The position numbers were made by a program, and so were the translations under genes. The notes under the pieces are model-generated. The model saw only the letters and a list, made by a program, of their open reading frames with translations. It searched no databases and had not been told where the DNA came from. Of a DNA stretch of 41,020 nucleotides, positions 26,888 through 35,562 are shown one piece after another. Every line of letters begins with the position of its first letter. The stretch's first letter is position 1. Source of the stretch: Roseovarius sp. (GTDB lineage Bacteria; Pseudomonadota; Alphaproteobacteria; Rhodobacterales; Rhodobacteraceae); contig NZ_JAGPVV010000177.1 of assembly GCF_018066915.1 (NCBI RefSeq), forward strand, positions 1 to 41,020, in the 5' to 3' direction.

Positions 26888-28663
26888 ATGAAGATGACCA
26901 CCGAAGAGGCCTTTGTCAAAACCCTGCAACTGCATGGAATCCAACACGCTTTTGGGATCATCGGCTCTGCCATGATGCCGATTTCGGATATTTTCCCCAA
27001 GGCCGGGATCACCTTTTGGGACTGCGCGCACGAAGGCTCTGCCGGCATGATGGCCGATGGCTACACCCGTGCCACCGGCAAGATGTCGATGATGATCGCC
27101 CAGAACGGCCCCGGCATCACCAATTTCGTGACCGCCGTCAAAACCGCCTACTGGAACCATACCCCCCTCCTCCTCGTGACCCCGCAAGCCGCCAACAAGA
27201 CCATTGGTCAGGGTGGCTTCCAAGAGGTCGAACAGATGAAACTGTTCGAAGACATGGTCGCCTATCAGGAAGAGGTGCGCGATCCCACCCGCATCGCCGA
27301 AACACTCAACCGTGTGATTCTCAAGGCAAAACGCGCCTCTGCGCCGGCCCAGATCAACGTGCCCCGCGATTTCTGGACGCAAGTGATCGACATCGAATTG
27401 CCCGCCATCGTCGAATTTGAACGCCCCTCCGGCGGCGAGACCGCGATTGCCGAGGCGGCCAAACTTCTGACCGAGGCCAAGTTTCCCGTCATCCTCAACG
27501 GGGCCGGTGTGGTGTTGGCGGACGGCATCGACGCCTCGCGCCAACTGGCCGAGCGTCTCGATGCCCCGGTTTGCGTGGGCTATCAGCACAATGACGCCTT
27601 CCCCGGCTCGCATCCGCTCTTCGCCGGGCCCTTGGGCTACAACGGCTCCAAGGCGGGGATGGAACTCATCTCGCGCGCCGATGTCGTGCTCTGCCTTGGC
27701 ACGCGCCTCAATCCCTTCTCGACCCTGCCGGGCTATGGCATCGACTATTGGCCCAAAGAGGCCAAGATCATTCAGGTCGACATCAACCCCGACCGCATCG
27801 GCCTGACCAAGAAAGTGACCGTGGGCATCGTCGGCGACGCCAAAAAGGTCGCCACCTCGATCCTCGCCAAATTGGGCGAGAGCGCGGGCGACACCGACCG
27901 CGCAGACCGCAAGGCTCTGATTGCGCAGACAAAATCGACATGGGCACAACAGCTCAGCTCGATGGACCACGAGGATGACGATCCCGGCACCACCTGGAAC
28001 GAGCGCGCCCGCGCCGATAAACCCGATTGGATGAGCCCCCGCATGGCATGGCGCGCGATCCAATCCGCCCTGCCGCGCGAGGCGATCATTTCGTCCGACA
28101 TCGGCAACAACTGCGCCATCGGCAATGCCTATCCGTCGTTCGAAGAAGGCCGCAAATACCTCGCCCCCGGCCTCTTTGGCCCCTGCGGCTATGGCCTGCC
28201 CTCCATCGTGGGCGCGAAGATCGGCTGTCCGGATGTTCCCGTGGTGGGCTTTGCGGGCGACGGCGCCTTTGGCATCGCGGTCAATGAACTGACCGCCATC
28301 GGCCGCTCGGAATGGCCCGCCGTGACGCAGATCGTGTTCCGCAATTACCAGTGGGGCGCTGAAAAGCGCAACTCAACCCTTTGGTTTGACGACAATTTCG
28401 TTGGAACAGAGCTGGATCAGCAGGTCAGCTATGCCGGGATTGCACAGGCTTGCGGCCTCAAGGGTGTCATCGCCCGCACGATGGAGGAACTGACCGACGC
28501 GCTCAACACCGCGATCAAGGACCAGATGGAGCATGGCAAGACCACCCTCATCGAGGCCATGATCAATCAGGAACTGGGCGAGCCCTTCCGCCGCGACGCA
28601 ATGAAAAAGCCCGTGGCCGTCGCCGGGATCAACCCCGCCGACATGCGCGAGCAGCAGGTCTGA
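26888..28663 (+). CDS. xsc: Sulfoacetaldehyde acetyltransferase
   Basis: ThDP enzyme: sulfoacetaldehyde plus phosphate gives acetyl phosphate plus sulfite, in the cytoplasm. 591 residues, normal length. The N-terminal region MKMTTEEAFVKTLQLHG, AFGIIGSAMMPISDIFPKAG and CAHEGSAGMMADGYTRATG (catalytic Glu) is nearly the textbook Xsc sequence. IGQGGFQEVEQM also fits. The ThDP-binding motif GFAGDGAFGIAVNE ... FRNYQWG is in the C-terminal third. GAGGA precedes the ATG. tauR lies upstream and ackA 3 bp downstream. Confidence 0.97.
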   Translation: MKMTTEEAFVKTLQLHGIQHAFGIIGSAMMPISDIFPKAGITFWDCAHEGSAGMMADGYTRATGKMSMMIAQNGPGITNFVTAVKTAYWNHTPLLLVTPQAANKTIGQGGFQEVEQMKLFEDMVAYQEEVRDPTRIAETLNRVILKAKRASAPAQINVPRDFWTQVIDIELPAIVEFERPSGGETAIAEAAKLLTEAKFPVILNGAGVVLADGIDASRQLAERLDAPVCVGYQHNDAFPGSHPLFAGPLGYNGSKAGMELISRADVVLCLGTRLNPFSTLPGYGIDYWPKEAKIIQVDINPDRIGLTKKVTVGIVGDAKKVATSILAKLGESAGDTDRADRKALIAQTKSTWAQQLSSMDHEDDDPGTTWNERARADKPDWMSPRMAWRAIQSALPREAIISSDIGNNCAIGNAYPSFEEGRKYLAPGLFGPCGYGLPSIVGAKIGCPDVPVVGFAGDGAFGIAVNELTAIGRSEWPAVTQIVFRNYQWGAEKRNSTLWFDDNFVGTELDQQVSYAGIAQACGLKGVIARTMEELTDALNTAIKDQMEHGKTTLIEAMINQELGEPFRRDAMKKPVAVAGINPADMREQQV

Positions 28664-28666
28664 CCC

Positions 28667-29827
28667 ATGTCGAGACCCGGCAACAGCGATCTCATTCTGG
28701 TCCTGAATGCCGGGTCATCCTCGATCAAGCTTGCCGTTTTTGACGGCACGCTCACCCAAATCCTGACCGGGATCGCCGATGGGATCGGCGGCCCCGGCAC
28801 CCTAAAACTGGGTGATGTGAAAACTGCTCAGGACTTCCCTGACCACGCCACAGCCCTGCACGCCATCCTGCAAGCACTTGAAACCCAAGGCTTTCCCATC
28901 AATCGCTTTGCCGCCGCCGCGCATCGCGTGGTGCATGGTGGCACCGCACTGACCCAGCCCACGCGCCTCACGCCTGCGGTGCTGACCGCGATCAAAGCCT
29001 GCACGCCGCTTGCCCCGCTGCACAACCCACACAACATCGCCGCGATTGAAACGCTGTCCGCGCTTGCCCCCGAACTGCCGCAGGTGGCCGCGTTCGACAC
29101 CGCCTTTCACGCGAGCAACCCCGAGGTCGCCACCCGCTACGCCCTGCCGCCGCAGATCGAGGCGCGCGGCATCCGGCGCTATGGCTTTCACGGCATCTCC
29201 TATGCCTCTTTGGTCGACAGCCTGCCCGCCCTGACCGGCACGCCCCTGCCGGCGCGCCTCTTGGCCCTTCACCTTGGCAACGGCGCGTCGATCTGCGCCA
29301 TTCGTGACGGGCAATCTATCGCCACATCAATGGGTTACTCGCCCCTTGAGGGGCTGACCATGGGCACCCGCACCGGCATGATCGACGGCAACGCGGTGCT
29401 GCGCTTGGCCGAGGAGGATGGCATCGCGGCCACCCACACGCTTTTGAACAAGGAAAGCGGGCTGCGCGGCCTCTCAGGCGGTCTCTCGGATATGCGCGCG
29501 CTGCTCGCTGACCCCTCCCCGGCAAGCGCCTTCGCGGTCGAGCATTTCTGCTACTGGGCCATCCGCCACGCCGGATCGTTGATCGCCGCAATGGGGGGCC
29601 TCGACGCCGTGGCCTTTACCGGCGGCATCGGCGAAAACGCGGCCCCCGTGCGCGCCCGGATCATGGACGGACTGGCCTGGCTCGGGGCGCAGATCGACGC
29701 CCGCGCCAATGCAACGGGCGCAACCCGCCTGCACGCCCCCGGCTCGAACATCGCCTGCTGGATCGTCCCGGCCCAAGAGGAACGCATGATCGCGGGCGAT
29801 GCACAGCGCCTTCTATCGCACGAATGA
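28667..29827 (+). CDS. ackA: Acetate kinase
   Basis: Converts acetyl phosphate and ADP to acetate and ATP. 386 residues with LVLNAGSSSIKLAVFDG, AAHRVVHGG, VAAFDTAFH, RRYGFHGISYASLV, LALHLGNGASICAI, GLTMGTRTGMIDG and FTGGIGENAAPVR, all acetate-kinase signatures. It starts 3 bp after the xsc stop, so it is certainly co-expressed and would receive acetyl phosphate from Xsc. In other Rhodobacteraceae phosphotransacetylase (pta) often follows xsc; here it does not, at least within the window. Confidence 0.96.
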   Translation: MSRPGNSDLILVLNAGSSSIKLAVFDGTLTQILTGIADGIGGPGTLKLGDVKTAQDFPDHATALHAILQALETQGFPINRFAAAAHRVVHGGTALTQPTRLTPAVLTAIKACTPLAPLHNPHNIAAIETLSALAPELPQVAAFDTAFHASNPEVATRYALPPQIEARGIRRYGFHGISYASLVDSLPALTGTPLPARLLALHLGNGASICAIRDGQSIATSMGYSPLEGLTMGTRTGMIDGNAVLRLAEEDGIAATHTLLNKESGLRGLSGGLSDMRALLADPSPASAFAVEHFCYWAIRHAGSLIAAMGGLDAVAFTGGIGENAAPVRARIMDGLAWLGAQIDARANATGATRLHAPGSNIACWIVPAQEERMIAGDAQRLLSHE

Positions 29828-29964: not shown

Positions 29965-32784
29965 ATGACACATCAGCCCCGCATCGACACTTCGCCGCAT
30001 GTCTCGGATGAGGTGCGCAAAACCACCTGTTACATGTGCGCCTGCCGCTGCGGCATCAATGTGCATCTCAAGGGCGGCAAGGTTGCCTATATCGAGGGCA
30101 ATCGCGATCACCCAGTGAACAAGGGCGTGCTCTGCGCCAAGGGCTCGGCGGGTATCATGCAGGTCAACGCCCCCTCGCGCCTGCGCGCGCCGCTCAAGCG
30201 GGTCGGCCCCCGTGGCTCGGGCGAGTTTCAGGAAATCTCTTGGGACGAGGCGCTGCAAATCGCCACTGACTGGCTCGAACCGATCCGCCATAACGATCCG
30301 TCCAAGCTCGCGTTCTTCACAGGGCGCGATCAATCACAGTCTTTCACCAGCTTTTGGGCGCAGAATTTCGGCACACCCAACTATGCCGCACACGGCGGAT
30401 TTTGCTCGGTCAACATGGCGGCGGCGGGTATCTACACCATGGGCGGCGCATTCTGGGAATTTGGCCAGCCGGATTGGGATCATACCAAGCTTTTCATCCT
30501 CTTCGGCGTGGCCGAAGACCATGACAGCAACCCGATCAAGATGGGCATTGGTCGGATCAAGGCGCGGGGCGCGCGCGTCATCGGCGTGAACCCGATCCGC
30601 TCGGGATACAACGCCGTGGCCGATGACTGGGTGGGCATAACCCCCGGAACAGATGGACTTTTTATCCTGTCTCTCATTCACGAACTGATGCAGGCAGGCA
30701 AGATTGACCTCGATTACCTCGCCCGCTACACCAATGCCCCTGTTCTGATGAATGCCGACCCCAAATCGCCCGAACACGGGCTTTTCCTGCGTGACGCCGA
30801 TGGCAAACCACTGGTGATCGACCGCAAGACCGGCCAGCTCACCGCCTTTGACACACCCGGAGTGCGTCCTGATCTCAGCGCCACATATGTGGCCGACGGC
30901 ATCACGCATCGCCCTGTGATGCACCTGATGGCCGAACGCTATCTCGATCCGCAATATGCCCCCGAAGCGGTCTCGGCGCGCTGCGGCATCACCCCTGACA
31001 AGATCCGCCGCATCGCCGCCGAAATCGCCCGCGTGGCCTTTGACGAGGCGATCACGCTCAACCACGAATGGACCGATTTCCGCGGCGAGACCCATCAGAC
31101 CATGACCGGCCGCCCCGTCAGCTTTCACGCCATGCGTGGAATTTCGGCCCATTCCAACGGGTTCCAGACCTGTCGCGCCCTGCATGTGCTGCAAATCCTG
31201 CTCGGCACGGTCGAAGTGCCCGGCGGTTTCCGCTTCAAACCGCCCTATCCCAAGCCCATCACCGCCCATCCCAAACCGCATTGCGGCGTGCAGCCCGATT
31301 GCCCGCTCGACGGCCCGCACTTGGGCTTTGTGCGCGGCCCCGAGGATCTGGCGCTCAAGCCTGACGGCACGCCCGCCCGCATCGACAAGGCGTTTACCTG
31401 GGAAAACCCGATGTCGGCGCATGGGTTGATGCATATGGTCATCTCCAATGCCCATGCCGGTGATCCCTACAAGATCGACACGCTTTTCATGTACATGGCC
31501 AACATGTCGTGGAATTCCTCGATGAACACGCGCGGCGTGATCGAGATGCTGACGGACAAGGATGAGAGCGGCGCCTATGTCATCCCCCGCATCATCTATT
31601 CGGATGCCTATAGCTCTGAAATGGTCGCCTATGCCGATCTGATCCTGCCCGACACCACTTATCTGGAACGCCACGACTGCATCTCGCTGCTGGATCGCCC
31701 AATCTGCGAGGCGGATGCCGCCGCCGATGCGATCCGCTGGCCGGTGATCAAACCCGACCGCGATGTGCGCGGCTTTCAAACCGTGCTGGTGCAACTGGCC
31801 AATAAACTGAAATTGCCCGGCTTCACCGCCGAGGATGGCGCGGCCAAGTACACCGATTACGCCGATTACATCGTCAATCACGAGCGTAAGCCCGGAATCG
31901 GCCCGCTCTCGGGCTTTCGCGGCGACGGCACAGAGACCGGGCGCGGCGCCCCCAATCCCGAGCAGCTTGACCGCTATATCGAGAACGGCGGCTTTTTCGT
32001 CAGCCACATCCCCGACGGCGCGCAGTATTACAAACCGTGGAACATGGCCTATCAGAACTGGGCCGTCGGCATGGGCCTCTTTGACACGCCGCAGCCCTAT
32101 GTGTTTGATCTCTACGTTGAAACCATGCGCAAATTCCAACTGGCCGCCGAGGGGCATGGCACCCGCCAGCCCCCCGACCACCTGCGCGATCGGATCAAGG
32201 CCACGATGGACCCGCTGCCAATCTGGTATCCTCCCTTCGAGGACACGCATGTCGACCCCGATGAATTCCCCGTCCACGCGCTGACACAGCGCCCGATGGC
32301 GATGTATCACTCTTGGGGCACGCAAAACGCATGGCTCCGCCAGATCCACGGACAAAATCCGCTCTATCTGCCCACCAAACTCTGGGAGAAACACGGGTTC
32401 AGCGACGGGGATTGGGCACGCGTCACCTCTGCCCATGGCGAGATTACCGTGCCCGTGGCCCACATGGCCGCGCTCAACGAAAACACGGTCTGGACATGGA
32501 ACGCCATCGGCAAGCGCAAGGGCGCTTGGGCGCTCTCCGAGGATGCCCCCGAGGCCACGCGCGGCTTTCTGCTCAACCATCTTATCCACGAGCTTTTGCC
32601 GCCCAAGGGGGATGGTCTGAGATGGTCCAATTCCGATCCCATCACCGGACAGGCCGCGTGGTTCGATCTGCGCGTCAAGATCGAGAAAGCCACGCCACCC
32701 CAAGAAGCACAGCCCGCCTTTGCGCCGATCAAATCGCCAGTGGGCAAGGGTCCTGACAACCTGAAATGGAAGGTCGGGAAATGA
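29965..32784 (+). CDS. soeA: Sulfite dehydrogenase molybdopterin subunit SoeA
   Basis: Catalytic subunit of the membrane-bound cytoplasmic sulfite:quinone oxidoreductase. 939 residues, DMSO-reductase/CISM family. No Tat or Sec signal is present: MTHQPRIDTSPHVSDEVRKT runs straight into the 4Fe-4S motif C22-x2-C25-x3-C29 ... C57. C147 in HGGFCSVNMAAAG is the likely Mo ligand. C-terminal molybdopterin-binding region has MYHSWGTQNAWLRQIHGQNPLY. Assignment to SoeA, not to a thiosulfate or polysulfide reductase, rests on the cytoplasmic form and linkage to xsc. Its stop overlaps the next small gene as ATGA. Confidence 0.9.
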   Translation: MTHQPRIDTSPHVSDEVRKTTCYMCACRCGINVHLKGGKVAYIEGNRDHPVNKGVLCAKGSAGIMQVNAPSRLRAPLKRVGPRGSGEFQEISWDEALQIATDWLEPIRHNDPSKLAFFTGRDQSQSFTSFWAQNFGTPNYAAHGGFCSVNMAAAGIYTMGGAFWEFGQPDWDHTKLFILFGVAEDHDSNPIKMGIGRIKARGARVIGVNPIRSGYNAVADDWVGITPGTDGLFILSLIHELMQAGKIDLDYLARYTNAPVLMNADPKSPEHGLFLRDADGKPLVIDRKTGQLTAFDTPGVRPDLSATYVADGITHRPVMHLMAERYLDPQYAPEAVSARCGITPDKIRRIAAEIARVAFDEAITLNHEWTDFRGETHQTMTGRPVSFHAMRGISAHSNGFQTCRALHVLQILLGTVEVPGGFRFKPPYPKPITAHPKPHCGVQPDCPLDGPHLGFVRGPEDLALKPDGTPARIDKAFTWENPMSAHGLMHMVISNAHAGDPYKIDTLFMYMANMSWNSSMNTRGVIEMLTDKDESGAYVIPRIIYSDAYSSEMVAYADLILPDTTYLERHDCISLLDRPICEADAAADAIRWPVIKPDRDVRGFQTVLVQLANKLKLPGFTAEDGAAKYTDYADYIVNHERKPGIGPLSGFRGDGTETGRGAPNPEQLDRYIENGGFFVSHIPDGAQYYKPWNMAYQNWAVGMGLFDTPQPYVFDLYVETMRKFQLAAEGHGTRQPPDHLRDRIKATMDPLPIWYPPFEDTHVDPDEFPVHALTQRPMAMYHSWGTQNAWLRQIHGQNPLYLPTKLWEKHGFSDGDWARVTSAHGEITVPVAHMAALNENTVWTWNAIGKRKGAWALSEDAPEATRGFLLNHLIHELLPPKGDGLRWSNSDPITGQAAWFDLRVKIEKATPPQEAQPAFAPIKSPVGKGPDNLKWKVGK

Positions 32785-32930
32785 GCGGCAAAACCCTGAC
32801 ATTGCTGGCCATTCTGGCCTTTGTCGCGTTCAGCGTCGGCTCGTTCATCTGGTTCATCGCCACATGGGACAAGAGCCGGGAAGAGCCGGTAAGCATCCGG
32901 CCCCATAACAGTGAGGAGCGCCGCGCATGA
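32781..32930 (+). CDS. 49-residue single-pass membrane protein between soeA and soeB
   Basis: ATG at 32781 overlaps the soeA stop (ATGA) and its TGA at 32928-32930 overlaps the soeB start (ATGA). It begins MSGKTLTLLAILAFVAFSVG, has one hydrophobic helix at about residues 5-29 ending in FIWFIATWD, and a charged tail (KSREEPVSIRPHNSEERRA). The Lys near the N terminus and Arg/Glu-rich tail allow a single inner-membrane span. No known family is recognised. Position argues for an assembly factor, or an accessory subunit of the Soe complex that contacts SoeC; that is inference. Confidence 0.8.
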   Translation: MSGKTLTLLAILAFVAFSVGSFIWFIATWDKSREEPVSIRPHNSEERRA

Positions 32931-33709
32931 CAACGCTTCCCGAAACCACCACCCGCAAGCTGGGCCTTGTGATCGACCTTGACACCTGCGTCGGCTGTCA
33001 TGCCTGCGTCGTGTCCTGCAAGGGCTGGAACACCGAGAATTACGGCGCACCCCTCAGTGATCAGCAGCCCTACGGCGCGGACCCATCGGGCACGTTCCTC
33101 AACCGCGTTCACAGCTACGAGGCCCAGCCGCTGGCAACCTCGGCTATGCCGCACCCCGCCGCGCAATTGGTGCATTTCCCCAAATCCTGCCTGCATTGCG
33201 AGGATGCGCCTTGCGTCACCGTCTGCCCCACGGGCGCCAGCTATAAACGGGTCGAGGATGGGATCGTTCTGGTCAACGAAACCGACTGCATCGGCTGCGG
33301 TCTCTGTGCCTGGGCGTGCCCCTATGGCGCGCGCGAAATGGACGCGGCCGAAGGCGTGATGAAGAAATGCACCCTCTGCGTGGACCGAATCTATAACGAG
33401 AACCTCCCCGAGGTCGACCGCGTGCCTGCCTGCGTGCGCACTTGCCCCGCCGGTGCCCGCCATTTCGGCGATTTCGCGGACCCCGAGAGCAATGTCTCAA
33501 AGCTGACCGCCGAACGCGGCGGCCTAGACCTCATGCCAGAGCAGGCCACCAAACCCGTCAACAAATACCTGCCGCCGCGCCCCAAGGACCGGCTCGACCA
33601 GCCCAAGCCGGTGGGCGAGATCGACATTCTGGCGCCGTTCCTCGCCCCCGTGATTGAGGAACCCAAGGGCTTCCTTGGCTGGCTCGACAAGACCTTGGAG
33701 AAGCTCTGA
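32927..33709 (+). CDS. soeB: Sulfite dehydrogenase iron-sulfur subunit SoeB
   Basis: 260 residues. Electron-transfer subunit with 16 cluster cysteines for four 4Fe-4S clusters: C21, C24, C27, C31; C88, C91, C96, C100; C121, C124, C127, C131; C148, C151, C169, C173. The blocks DTCVGCHACVVSC, SCLHCEDAPCVTVCP and DCIGCGLCAWACP are plain. No signal peptide, so it is on the cytoplasmic side with SoeA. The C terminus (LAPVIEEPKGFLGWLDKTLEKL) is amphipathic and may touch the membrane subunit. Its start overlaps the small membrane gene by ATGA and its stop overlaps soeC. Confidence 0.93.
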   Translation: MTTLPETTTRKLGLVIDLDTCVGCHACVVSCKGWNTENYGAPLSDQQPYGADPSGTFLNRVHSYEAQPLATSAMPHPAAQLVHFPKSCLHCEDAPCVTVCPTGASYKRVEDGIVLVNETDCIGCGLCAWACPYGAREMDAAEGVMKKCTLCVDRIYNENLPEVDRVPACVRTCPAGARHFGDFADPESNVSKLTAERGGLDLMPEQATKPVNKYLPPRPKDRLDQPKPVGEIDILAPFLAPVIEEPKGFLGWLDKTLEKL

Positions 33710-34581
33710 TGCATCCAGCCCCTTCCGTCATCGTCTTTACCACACTCTCGGGCTTGGGCTTTGGCCTGCTTTTTTGGCTGGGTCTGGGCCTGCCTGCGGT
33801 CTCGGGTTGGGTTGCCTTTGTCTTTTTCGCCATCGGCTATGCACTGGCCGTGGGCGGGCTGATGGCCTCGACCTTTCACCTCGGGCATCCTGAACGGGCG
33901 TGGAAGGCGTTTAGCCAATGGCGATCAAGCTGGCTGAGCCGTGAAGGCGTCTGCGCAGTCGCGGCGCTTGTCGTCATGGGGATTTACGGCGCCGGGCTTG
34001 TGTTCTTTGACGAACGTCTGGCGCTCTTGGGCTGGCTCGGCACGGCGCTCGCTCTTGGCACCGTGTTCACCACGTCGATGATCTATGCCCAACTGAAAAC
34101 CGTGCCGCGCTGGAAAACGCCTCTGACACCCGCGCTCTTGATCGCGATTTCACTGGCGGGGGGCGCGCTCTTGGCGGGACAGGTCAGCGCGGCGCTGATC
34201 CTGATCCCGATTGCAGGGGTGCTGCAAATCCTGTGGTGGGTGCGCGGCGATGGTGCCTTTGCCGCCTCGGGCACGGATATGGCGACAGCAACGGGCCTCG
34301 GGCATATCGGCTCTGTCCGCGCGTTTGAGCCACCCCATACCGGGCCAAACTACCTCTTGCGTGAACTGGTCTTTCAGGTTGGGCGTAAACACGCCCTGAA
34401 ACTGCGCGGCATTGCCTTTGGCTTGGGATATGCCCTGCCCATCCTGCTGTTGCTGGTGCCGTTCAGCCATGCCCTCGCCTTGGTTGCGGTCATCGCGCAT
34501 GTCGCAGGGATCGCGGCATCACGCTGGTTGTTCTTTGCCGAGGCAGAGCATGTCGTGGGTCTCTACTACGGCAAACGCTGA
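33709..34581 (+). CDS. soeC: Sulfite dehydrogenase membrane anchor SoeC (DmsC-like)
   Basis: 290 residues with about eight hydrophobic helices, DmsC type. It should pass electrons from SoeB to quinone. Family pattern: MASTFHLGHPERAWKAFSQWRSSWLSREG near residue 50-80, TSMIYAQLKTVPRW near 130 and GLYYGKR at the end. HLGHPERAW and WLSREG are conserved DmsC segments. Start and soeB stop share one base (TGATG), the usual coupling for an anchor subunit. A GC-rich hairpin lies just beyond the stop. Confidence 0.92.
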   Translation: MHPAPSVIVFTTLSGLGFGLLFWLGLGLPAVSGWVAFVFFAIGYALAVGGLMASTFHLGHPERAWKAFSQWRSSWLSREGVCAVAALVVMGIYGAGLVFFDERLALLGWLGTALALGTVFTTSMIYAQLKTVPRWKTPLTPALLIAISLAGGALLAGQVSAALILIPIAGVLQILWWVRGDGAFAASGTDMATATGLGHIGSVRAFEPPHTGPNYLLRELVFQVGRKHALKLRGIAFGLGYALPILLLLVPFSHALALVAVIAHVAGIAASRWLFFAEAEHVVGLYYGKR

Positions 34582-34588
34582 AACCGGG

Positions 34589-34610
34589 GGGCGCGGGTTT
34601 ATCCGCGCCC
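34589..34610. terminator. GC-rich hairpin after soeC
   Basis: GGGCGCGG at 34589-34596 pairs with CCGCGCCC at 34603-34610 around a 6-nt loop. It separates the converging soeC and DUF1523 genes and overlaps the last codons of the latter. No T-run is present on the plus strand, so efficiency is uncertain. Confidence 0.45.
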
Positions 34611-35180
34611 GACGCTCCATTCCGTGTCGCCCTTCTCTTGACGCCCCTCCCAGAACCGCCGCCAGCGAACCCGGATGGCCCAAGCAGATGCGGCAAGCAG
34701 GAGGAGGATCACAATCTTGACCCATGGAATGATCCGCACATCCGGCCCCGCAACCGGCCAGATGCTGACGGCATTGGGATATATAGAGAAAAACTCTACC
34801 CGCCAGCCATAGTGGCGCACGACGACCCACTGGGCATTCTCGGCGGCTTTCTTGGACATCATGTCCGAGGCTTCGGCCTGCAAATTCGAGGTATCGAACT
34901 TGAAATAGGGTGGCCAGCCCCAGCCCGTATCCTCGTTGCGGTAGATCATCGGCTTGTCATTGGCGCGGAACGTCTGGATGAAGAACACATCCCGTTCGGT
35001 CGCCGTCGGGTCCTCTCCGGTATCCGCATTGGACCAGAAGAGCGAATTATCCCCCGGATTGACCCGCTTTTCATAGGTGTCCGTGATCCGCACCACATCA
35101 TGCTGCGGCAGCGTGTAATGCAGAAACGCAATCACGCAGGTCCAGAACAGACCCCAGAACACCCATTTGACATAGACCAT
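34599..35180 (-). CDS. DUF1523 family membrane protein
   Basis: 193 residues of DUF1523, known mainly from Rhodobacteraceae and of unknown function. An N-terminal helix (VKWVFWGLFWTCVIAFLHYTL, residues 4-24) and a C-terminal one (WVKIVILLLLAASAWAI, about 152-170) bracket a periplasmic region with VVRITDTYEKRVNPGDNSLFW, FFIQTFRANDKPMIYRNEDTGWGWPPYFKFDTSNLQ in family-typical blocks, and VVVRHYGWRVEFFSIYPNAVSIWP. It begins 11 bp after a two-helix membrane protein gene and converges with soeC. Confidence 0.88.
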   Translation of the reverse strand: MVYVKWVFWGLFWTCVIAFLHYTLPQHDVVRITDTYEKRVNPGDNSLFWSNADTGEDPTATERDVFFIQTFRANDKPMIYRNEDTGWGWPPYFKFDTSNLQAEASDMMSKKAAENAQWVVVRHYGWRVEFFSIYPNAVSIWPVAGPDVRIIPWVKIVILLLLAASAWAIRVRWRRFWEGRQEKGDTEWSVGRG

Positions 35181-35191
35181 CGTCGGCCCCC

Positions 35192-35458
35192 TTACATGAA
35201 GTTCGTCAGATATATGATGACCACCACCGTCGTCACCGGAACAATATAGACCAGCCAGATCAGCCGCTTGCGCAGCGAGTGCTCATATTGCTTCATCCCA
35301 GCCTCTATATAGGCATTCCTGTCGCCGGGACGACCCGCCTCTTCCCAATCGCGCTCCATTTTCTGCCGCCGAACGGAACGCGAGTACCAGGAAATCGCCA
35401 GATAGAGCACCGTCAGAGCGATCAACCCAAAGATCAGCAAGCGCATCAGCGCCACCAT
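35192..35458 (-). CDS. Small two-helix membrane protein
   Basis: 88 residues, not recognised. The ATG at 35456-35458 has AAGGAG 7 nt before. Two hydrophobic helices, at about residues 4-24 (LMRLLIFGLIALTVLYLAIS) and 67-87 (RLIWLVYIVPVTTVVVIIYL), flank a charged cytoplasmic loop (RRQKMERDWEEAGRPGDRN). It is in an operon with DUF1523, 11 bp upstream of it. The pair is a likely functional unit in the cell envelope. Confidence 0.75.
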   Translation of the reverse strand: MVALMRLLIFGLIALTVLYLAISWYSRSVRRQKMERDWEEAGRPGDRNAYIEAGMKQYEHSLRKRLIWLVYIVPVTTVVVIIYLTNFM

Positions 35459-35562
35459 GGCATGCTCCTTGTTTTCAAGTTCCGACCAAAGCCGCCCCCT
35501 TGCATACCGCAGAATCATGCTAGGCTGCACCCCATATGCACCGAAACCCGAAAGGACATGCC

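Follow-up and report, generated by a model that had tools for sequence, protein, structure and literature searches.

A conserved 49-residue frame, soeX, with one predicted membrane helix between soeA and soeB in some Rhodobacteraceae

The soeA and soeB genes of a Roseovarius sp. are separated by a 49-codon reading frame, for which we propose the name soeX (SoeX for its protein). The frame is real and beyond chance, because its core recurs between soeA and soeB in other genera and the in-frame substitutions are mostly synonymous. Computation establishes the gene, the selection acting on it, its location, its predicted helix, and its patchy presence. As to what the protein does, we lean towards the view that SoeX is an optional accessory helix of the SoeABC enzyme, made in step with it.

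Marine Rhodobacteraceae must dispose of the sulfite that comes from taurine and other sulfonates, and SoeABC is one described enzyme for the task. If the accessory reading is true, some species may possess a form of this enzyme with a fourth part, and a conserved fourth frame belonging to SoeABC would alter what should be cloned, purified, and imaged in these bacteria. Because close relatives lack SoeX, its role is open to comparison inside a single genus. The junction also offers a natural experiment in how translation is coupled, with dozens of different inserts keeping the path from soeA to soeB open, some of them evidently unselected as proteins.

The Soe Operon and Its Sulfonate Context

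The window (the whole stretch of DNA analyzed, 41,020 nt of contig NZ_JAGPVV010000177.1) carries soeA, soeB, and soeC on its forward strand, 3' of xsc and an acetate/propionate kinase gene. The product of soeA (29965..32784, 939 aa) is a molybdopterin oxidoreductase (Pfam Molybdopterin) whose best PDB sequence match is thiosulfate reductase (E 1.6e-38). It is followed by soeB (32927..33709, 260 aa), which encodes a 4Fe-4S ferredoxin-like subunit (Pfam Fer4_11), and by soeC (33709..34581, 290 aa), which encodes a DmsC-type membrane anchor (Pfam PF04976, DmsC, E 8.1e-11). Judged by Pfam, this is the layout of SoeABC: a molybdopterin SoeA, a ferredoxin-type SoeB, and an NrfD/DmsC-type SoeC in one operon. 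None of the three reached an equivalog cut-off in NCBIfam, and the name Soe is taken from context and the literature.

The xsc gene (26888..28663, forward strand) encodes sulfoacetaldehyde acetyltransferase (TIGR03457, 938 bits against a cut-off of 676), and the acetate/propionate kinase gene (28667–29827) lies between it and soeA. The nearby xsc places the soe genes next to sulfonate degradation, which sets sulfite free. From this context, SoeABC is presumed here to be a sulfite-oxidizing enzyme.

Beyond soeC, the opposite strand holds a gene for a DUF1523 protein (34599–35180) and a 112-aa ORF without a Pfam match (35192–35530). Elsewhere, a contig labeled as a Gammaproteobacteria MAG (L187) has soe genes 90–95% identical to those of the window and is probably mis-binned.

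The SoeX Frame and Its Overlaps

The soeX gene (32781..32930, forward strand) encodes MSGKTLTLLAILAFVAFSVGSFIWFIATWDKSREEPVSIRPHNSEERRA, a 49-aa membrane protein with a single predicted helix at residues 3–28. As read from the sequence, it overlaps each neighbor through an ATGA on the forward strand. In the first (32781..32784), the soeX ATG begins at 32781 and the soeA stop codon occupies 32782–32784; in the second (32927..32930), the soeB ATG begins at 32927 and the soeX TGA occupies 32928–32930. The initial annotation had described an ORF with one hydrophobic helix between soeA and soeB and an ATGA common to both, and this is confirmed. Starting instead at the in-frame ATG at 32766, which sits within the codons of the W-K-V end of SoeA, would lengthen the protein to 54 aa.

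A GGAAGG (32768–32773) lies 7 nt 5' of the soeX ATG, and a GAGGAG (32913–32918), inside soeX, lies 8 nt 5' of the soeB ATG. The latter codes for E45-E46 in an “EER” close to the SoeX C-terminus. It is probably the ribosome-binding site of soeB, and for that reason EER was rejected as a conserved motif of the protein and is not counted as protein conservation below.

Searches for Known Relatives

No family in Pfam, NCBIfam, or PHROGs (the last with the window protein only) matched SoeX above a curated cut-off or with a clear E-value. The best weak matches were to YrhK (E 0.0034, one of 47 SoeX members) and CbiN (best E 0.0079, four of 47). No PDB chain scored above chance (best E 0.55), and neither did anything among plasmids, where a single Vibrio match had an E of 0.5. 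In the openly licensed literature, the titles and abstract openings examined name no fourth Soe protein, and “SoeD” in combination with “sulfite” is absent.

Amino-Acid Selection on SoeX

For the selection test, 135 of 138 core loci were anchored on W29, giving 108 distinct 30-codon segments, and the 236 pairs that are at least 75% identical were compared. Such pairs share ancestry and are not independent, and the numbers are descriptive: 1106, 658, and 2367 differences at codon positions 1, 2, and 3, with pN/pS 0.26 and dN/dS 0.19 for the core. The soeB control has a dN/dS of 0.025, and the same core read in the shifted frames gives 1.26 and 2.44. Seven closely related Roseovarius-type sequences have a pN/pS of 0.17 in the core and 0.62 in the tail (codons 39–49), with 0.09 in soeB; the core read in the shifted frames gives 0.76 and 2.91. 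The SoeX core evolves under amino-acid selection. Inspection of the junction in other Rhodobacteraceae, which the initial annotation had proposed as a check, has yielded a conserved single-helix frame with mostly synonymous change (pN/pS 0.17–0.26).

Predicted SoeX Protein

AlphaFold2, given 27 sequences, predicts one helix spanning residues 3–28 and a less certain tail, with mean pLDDT values per ten residues of 92, 98, 95, 73, and 60. The conserved stretch reads G20-S21-F22-I23-W24-F25-x-A27-T28-W29-D30, or GSFIW[F/Y]xATWD. Conservation was counted over 107 distinct proteins, in which W29 is invariant by construction (it is the anchor), D30 is partly selected by that anchor, and positions 20–29 are partly selected by the scan motif; F22 is kept in 106, I11 in 105, G20 in 101, D30 in 98, S21 in 96, and T28 in 93. 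The 47 sequences gathered without the scan motif, a set that excludes L163, all have W29, and in them L8, I11, and F22 each reach 90% conservation or more.

The length of the 107 distinct proteins has a median of 49 and a range of 36–80. Their net charge is positive on the N-side in 102 and negative on the C-side in 89. By the positive-inside rule, this pattern points to an N-in, C-out topology, which would put the N-terminus on the cytoplasmic side and the acidic tail on the periplasmic side. SoeX is a small single-helix protein conserved within the operon of a membrane complex, and a new member of the small single-helix proteins of membrane-enzyme operons, itself a known kind.

Where SoeX Occurs, and Its Gain and Loss

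Within the same genus, 36 genomes were searched, and SoeX is found in 15 of the 35 that bear soeB: 13 helix ORFs come from 30 junction loci and two from the remaining five soeB-bearing genomes. A profile of the 13 sequences matched 38 of 394 family genomes. The match sits at the soeA-soeB junction in 37 of them; the 38th is weak (E 0.0055) and falls in a genome not matched by SoeB, and one matched genome has a second weak match elsewhere (E 0.001). SoeB was found in 285 of the 394 genomes, with a SoeX profile match in at least 37 and none in 248, a count of 37 that may be slightly low because at most 17 first-look candidates per genome were scored. Among the junctions read beyond these matches, there was no additional helix ORF of the SoeX kind.

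A motif scan of 84,980 genomes returned 148 stretches, 138 of them SoeX relatives, and 80 of these loci were taken with their surroundings. All 80 lie between soeA and soeB, and 79 hold a clean helix ORF by the rule used. At the other, L257, the core is present (E 7.3e-17) and the frame continues beyond the soeB start. A separate copy, at L163, is without the second half of the motif, as if decaying. Named carriers include Roseovarius, Yoonia, Loktanella, Octadecabacter, Tateyamaria, Marivita, Nereida, Shimia, and Roseibaca; R. mucosus DSM 17069 (L183) and R. tolerans DSM 11457 (L182) are two of the Roseovarius strains. A class-wide search matched nine of 385 genomes at E 0.01: two clearly (E ≤1e-15), both of the window's family, and seven weakly (E ≥7e-4), inside open frames of 289–442 codons. 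Overlap with the neighboring genes is common, with 37 of 49 distinct copies starting on the soeA stop and 44 of 49 ending on the soeB start.

On a tree of 137 loci built from the C-terminal part of SoeA together with SoeB, the distribution of SoeX needs 19 changes, at least 10 of them forced by well-supported branches, and none of 500 shuffles (mean 26.5) clusters as strongly. This is a quick tree, with 48 of 134 inner branches open and a long-branch warning, and it does not distinguish gain from loss. The simplest reading is an old presence of SoeX followed by repeated loss; its transfer into the same site is a possible alternative.

SoeX is dispensable. SoeABC works without it, because 20 of the 35 soeB-bearing genomes of the genus and 248 of the 285 of the family are without a match, and because its state has changed at least 10 times. 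The initial annotation had suggested a possible fourth subunit or assembly factor, and had named absence from close relatives that keep soeA and soeB adjacent as evidence against the frame. Such absence is in part what we see, in the same 20 genomes, four of which have a direct soeA-soeB overlap. A universally required subunit is thereby set aside; a lineage-specific accessory remains compatible.

Other Occupants of the Junction

Among 137 loci with soeA and soeB, we find SoeX at 29, a short non-helix frame at 49, a long insert at 20, genes that overlap directly or lie no more than 30 nt apart at 36, and a short gap without a single bridging frame at three. These counts are not frequencies: 29 SoeX loci (L032–L060) were left out, L164 is without soeB, L161–L163 were fetched for their SoeX match, and sampling skipped many genomes already known to have SoeX. 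Other families contribute four loci: at L158–L160 the two genes overlap, and at L157 the gap between them is 1 nt. These arrangements suggest that direct contact is ancestral.

Of the 52 short non-SoeX junctions, 49 are spanned by one open frame that connects the soeA stop with the soeB start, where dinucleotide shuffles lead one to expect 27.2; a single frame also bridges 15 of the 20 long inserts (0.6 expected). A relay of one to three frames is present in 51 of 52 short junctions (29.9 expected) and 20 of 20 long ones (1.8 expected), i.e., in 71 of 72. For SoeX junctions, the corresponding figures are 29 of 29 (12.6 expected) and 78 of 80 (30.2 expected), an open frame being expected anyway for SoeX and for inserts that are true genes. 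The junctions without a relay are L206, L212, and one short junction. In addition, the gap length suits a double ATGA (gap mod 3 = 1) in 42 of the 52 short non-SoeX junctions.

The double ATGA is a property of the slot, not of SoeX, and it fits translational coupling of soeB to soeA. A shared ATGA does not mark soeX out, given how many other spacers and inserts are also bridged by one frame. The earlier claim of translation in step with soeA and soeB gains support, and such translation is very probable.

The same counts would suit a reading in which soeX is purely a coupling ORF that delivers ribosomes to soeB, its peptide being functionless. The slot favors open frames of any sequence, the gap lengths fit, and CbrX offers a precedent in the part of PMC6591292 that deals with it. 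SoeX indeed links stop to start as a coupling ORF would, but its peptide sequence is not irrelevant: the core has a pN/pS of 0.17–0.26 versus 0.74 in four related bridge frames, and a single helix motif across many genera is unnecessary for coupling. Because the amino acids of SoeX are conserved, we regard a pure coupling ORF as improbable.

There is little sign of amino-acid selection in the four bridge frames in question (L004, L005, L006, and L008). Their pN/pS of 0.74 compares with 0.73 and 1.04 in the shifted frames and with 0.08 for soeB of the same genomes, and their differences by codon position number 24, 20, and 27. Between the short frames of L023 and L024 there are three differences, all nonsynonymous. 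L102 and L119 are especially instructive: there, a gene-like antisense stretch is free of stops for 245 and 264 codons, respectively, and ends in what we take to be a VPLPA-like tail; the sense frame is still open for 301 and 306 codons, a length reached in 0 of 200 shuffles each.

Inside the L004 frame lies a palindrome, CCCGGGG..GGGGCAGCGCCCC. It has 18 copies in the genome of L004 (G010) and none in two others (G000 and G021), one of them the window's own, and a reversed-pattern control gave 0. Thirteen of 17 other copies in G010 (L264–L280) lie within 65 nt past an ORF end, and on eight of the 17 the nearest ORFs of at least 100 codons (ORFs, not annotation) converge.

Some junctions in other genomes hold unrelated genes, which we named by eye from their translations. 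An alpha/beta-hydrolase-like gene lies between soeA and soeB at L027, L068, L083, L100, L116, L122, L130, L165, and L169; others are LysE-like (L115 and L125) or dihydrofolate-reductase-like (L139), and there are more, including those at L124 and L151.

Could SoeX be a leftover, now decaying, of some larger membrane gene formerly in the slot? The L163 copy, which is without the second motif half, and the variable tails, some of which reach palindrome sequence (L018, L019, and L154), would fit such an origin. The stable length (median 49 over 107 proteins) and the low pN/pS do not, and no longer homolog stands above chance in Pfam, NCBIfam, or PDB. We give this explanation very little credence.

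A broader view takes the junction as a forced-translation slot in which proteins are born, with SoeX arising de novo from a bridge and, in some of the Rhodobacteraceae, joining SoeABC as its fourth component. Here, soeB would need ribosomes arriving from soeA, and DNA that landed in the slot would persist only if one open frame or a relay crossed it. For this reason, degenerate sequence would be translated as a bridge, and so would antisense genes and palindromes. SoeX, which lies only here in all copies examined and is without known homologs, would be a bridge that became a membrane helix. We put this forward as speculation and think it rather improbable.

Proposed Role of SoeX

On the reading that we prefer, in which SoeX serves SoeABC as an optional accessory helix, ribosomes ending soeA would restart at soeX and then at soeB, by termination-reinitiation at both ATGA overlaps. 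SoeX would in that way be made in step with SoeA and SoeB. By the charge rule, it would insert as one helix with a cytoplasmic N-terminus and a periplasmic acidic tail, and the GSFIW[F/Y]xATWD part would most likely pack against SoeC. SoeX may then serve the sulfite:quinone oxidoreductase as an optional accessory subunit or as an assembly helper, with a conceivable effect on assembly or on quinone chemistry.

The median length of SoeC is 290 aa both in carriers (84 distinct sequences) and in non-carriers (37 distinct sequences), and so SoeC gives no sign of having changed to receive or replace the helix. A separate idea, that SoeX is a detached extra helix of SoeC, was rejected, the length of SoeC and its crude helix count being the same in carriers and non-carriers. 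That hydropathy count is crude in that it found 5–8 helices, versus eight reported for Aquifex SoeC; the relevant section of PMC8076601 gives 8–10 for NrfD-type subunits. A comparison of SoeX presence with covariation in SoeB and SoeC had only eight independent pairs on well-supported branches and no power.

Alternatively, SoeX may serve another member of the pathway, e.g., in sulfite/sulfate export or in regulation, and share the operon for dosage only. The contact with SoeC is, after all, one that we infer, and the alpha/beta-hydrolase-like and LysE-like genes (by eye) also use the slot elsewhere. Those slot genes vary between genomes, however, whereas SoeX is at soeA-soeB in 80 of 80 and 37 of 37 copies examined, and the window's own genome is without a second copy at E 0.01. 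We consider another partner unlikely.

Comparison with Known Systems

CydX of cytochrome bd and KdpF of Kdp are small single-helix accessory proteins of membrane complexes. SoeX is like them in size, in its single helix, and in its place in a membrane-enzyme operon; it differs in being absent from most relatives and in being known here from sequence alone. In the Pfam and NCBIfam searches, which compare with family models rather than directly with these proteins, SoeX matched no CydX or KdpF family.

For SoeABC sulfite:quinone oxidoreductase, the pertinent section of PMC8076601 describes three subunits and gives no further one. The soeA, soeB, and soeC genes of the window agree with this in domains and order, but the window has a fourth, small frame as well, placed between soeA and soeB and under selection.

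CbrX of Pseudomonas putida is, in the portion of PMC6591292 devoted to it, a coupling ORF 5' of cbrA, and a peptide of altered sequence restores CbrA. Both CbrX and SoeX come from small ORFs that overlap the next gene, both have predicted membrane helices (CbrX) or a predicted helix (SoeX), and translational coupling, which is probable for SoeX, is common to the two. On that account, the identity of the CbrX peptide is irrelevant, whereas SoeX is under amino-acid selection.

Mycobacterial MIRU repeats, as set out in the relevant passage of PMC12548453, insert at start codons with a -4 coupling ORF. The palindrome-bearing bridge frames of SoeX-less relatives resemble them, and the palindrome is likewise a dispersed repeat. 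SoeX, in contrast, is no repeat, and 13 of 17 palindrome copies lie within 65 nt past an ORF end; with ORFs converging on eight of the 17, the palindrome does not share the insertion at start codons described in that passage. As far as these accounts go, CbrX and MIRU are published parallels for the coupling of soeB to soeA, and SoeX differs from the bridge frames in that its amino-acid sequence is conserved.
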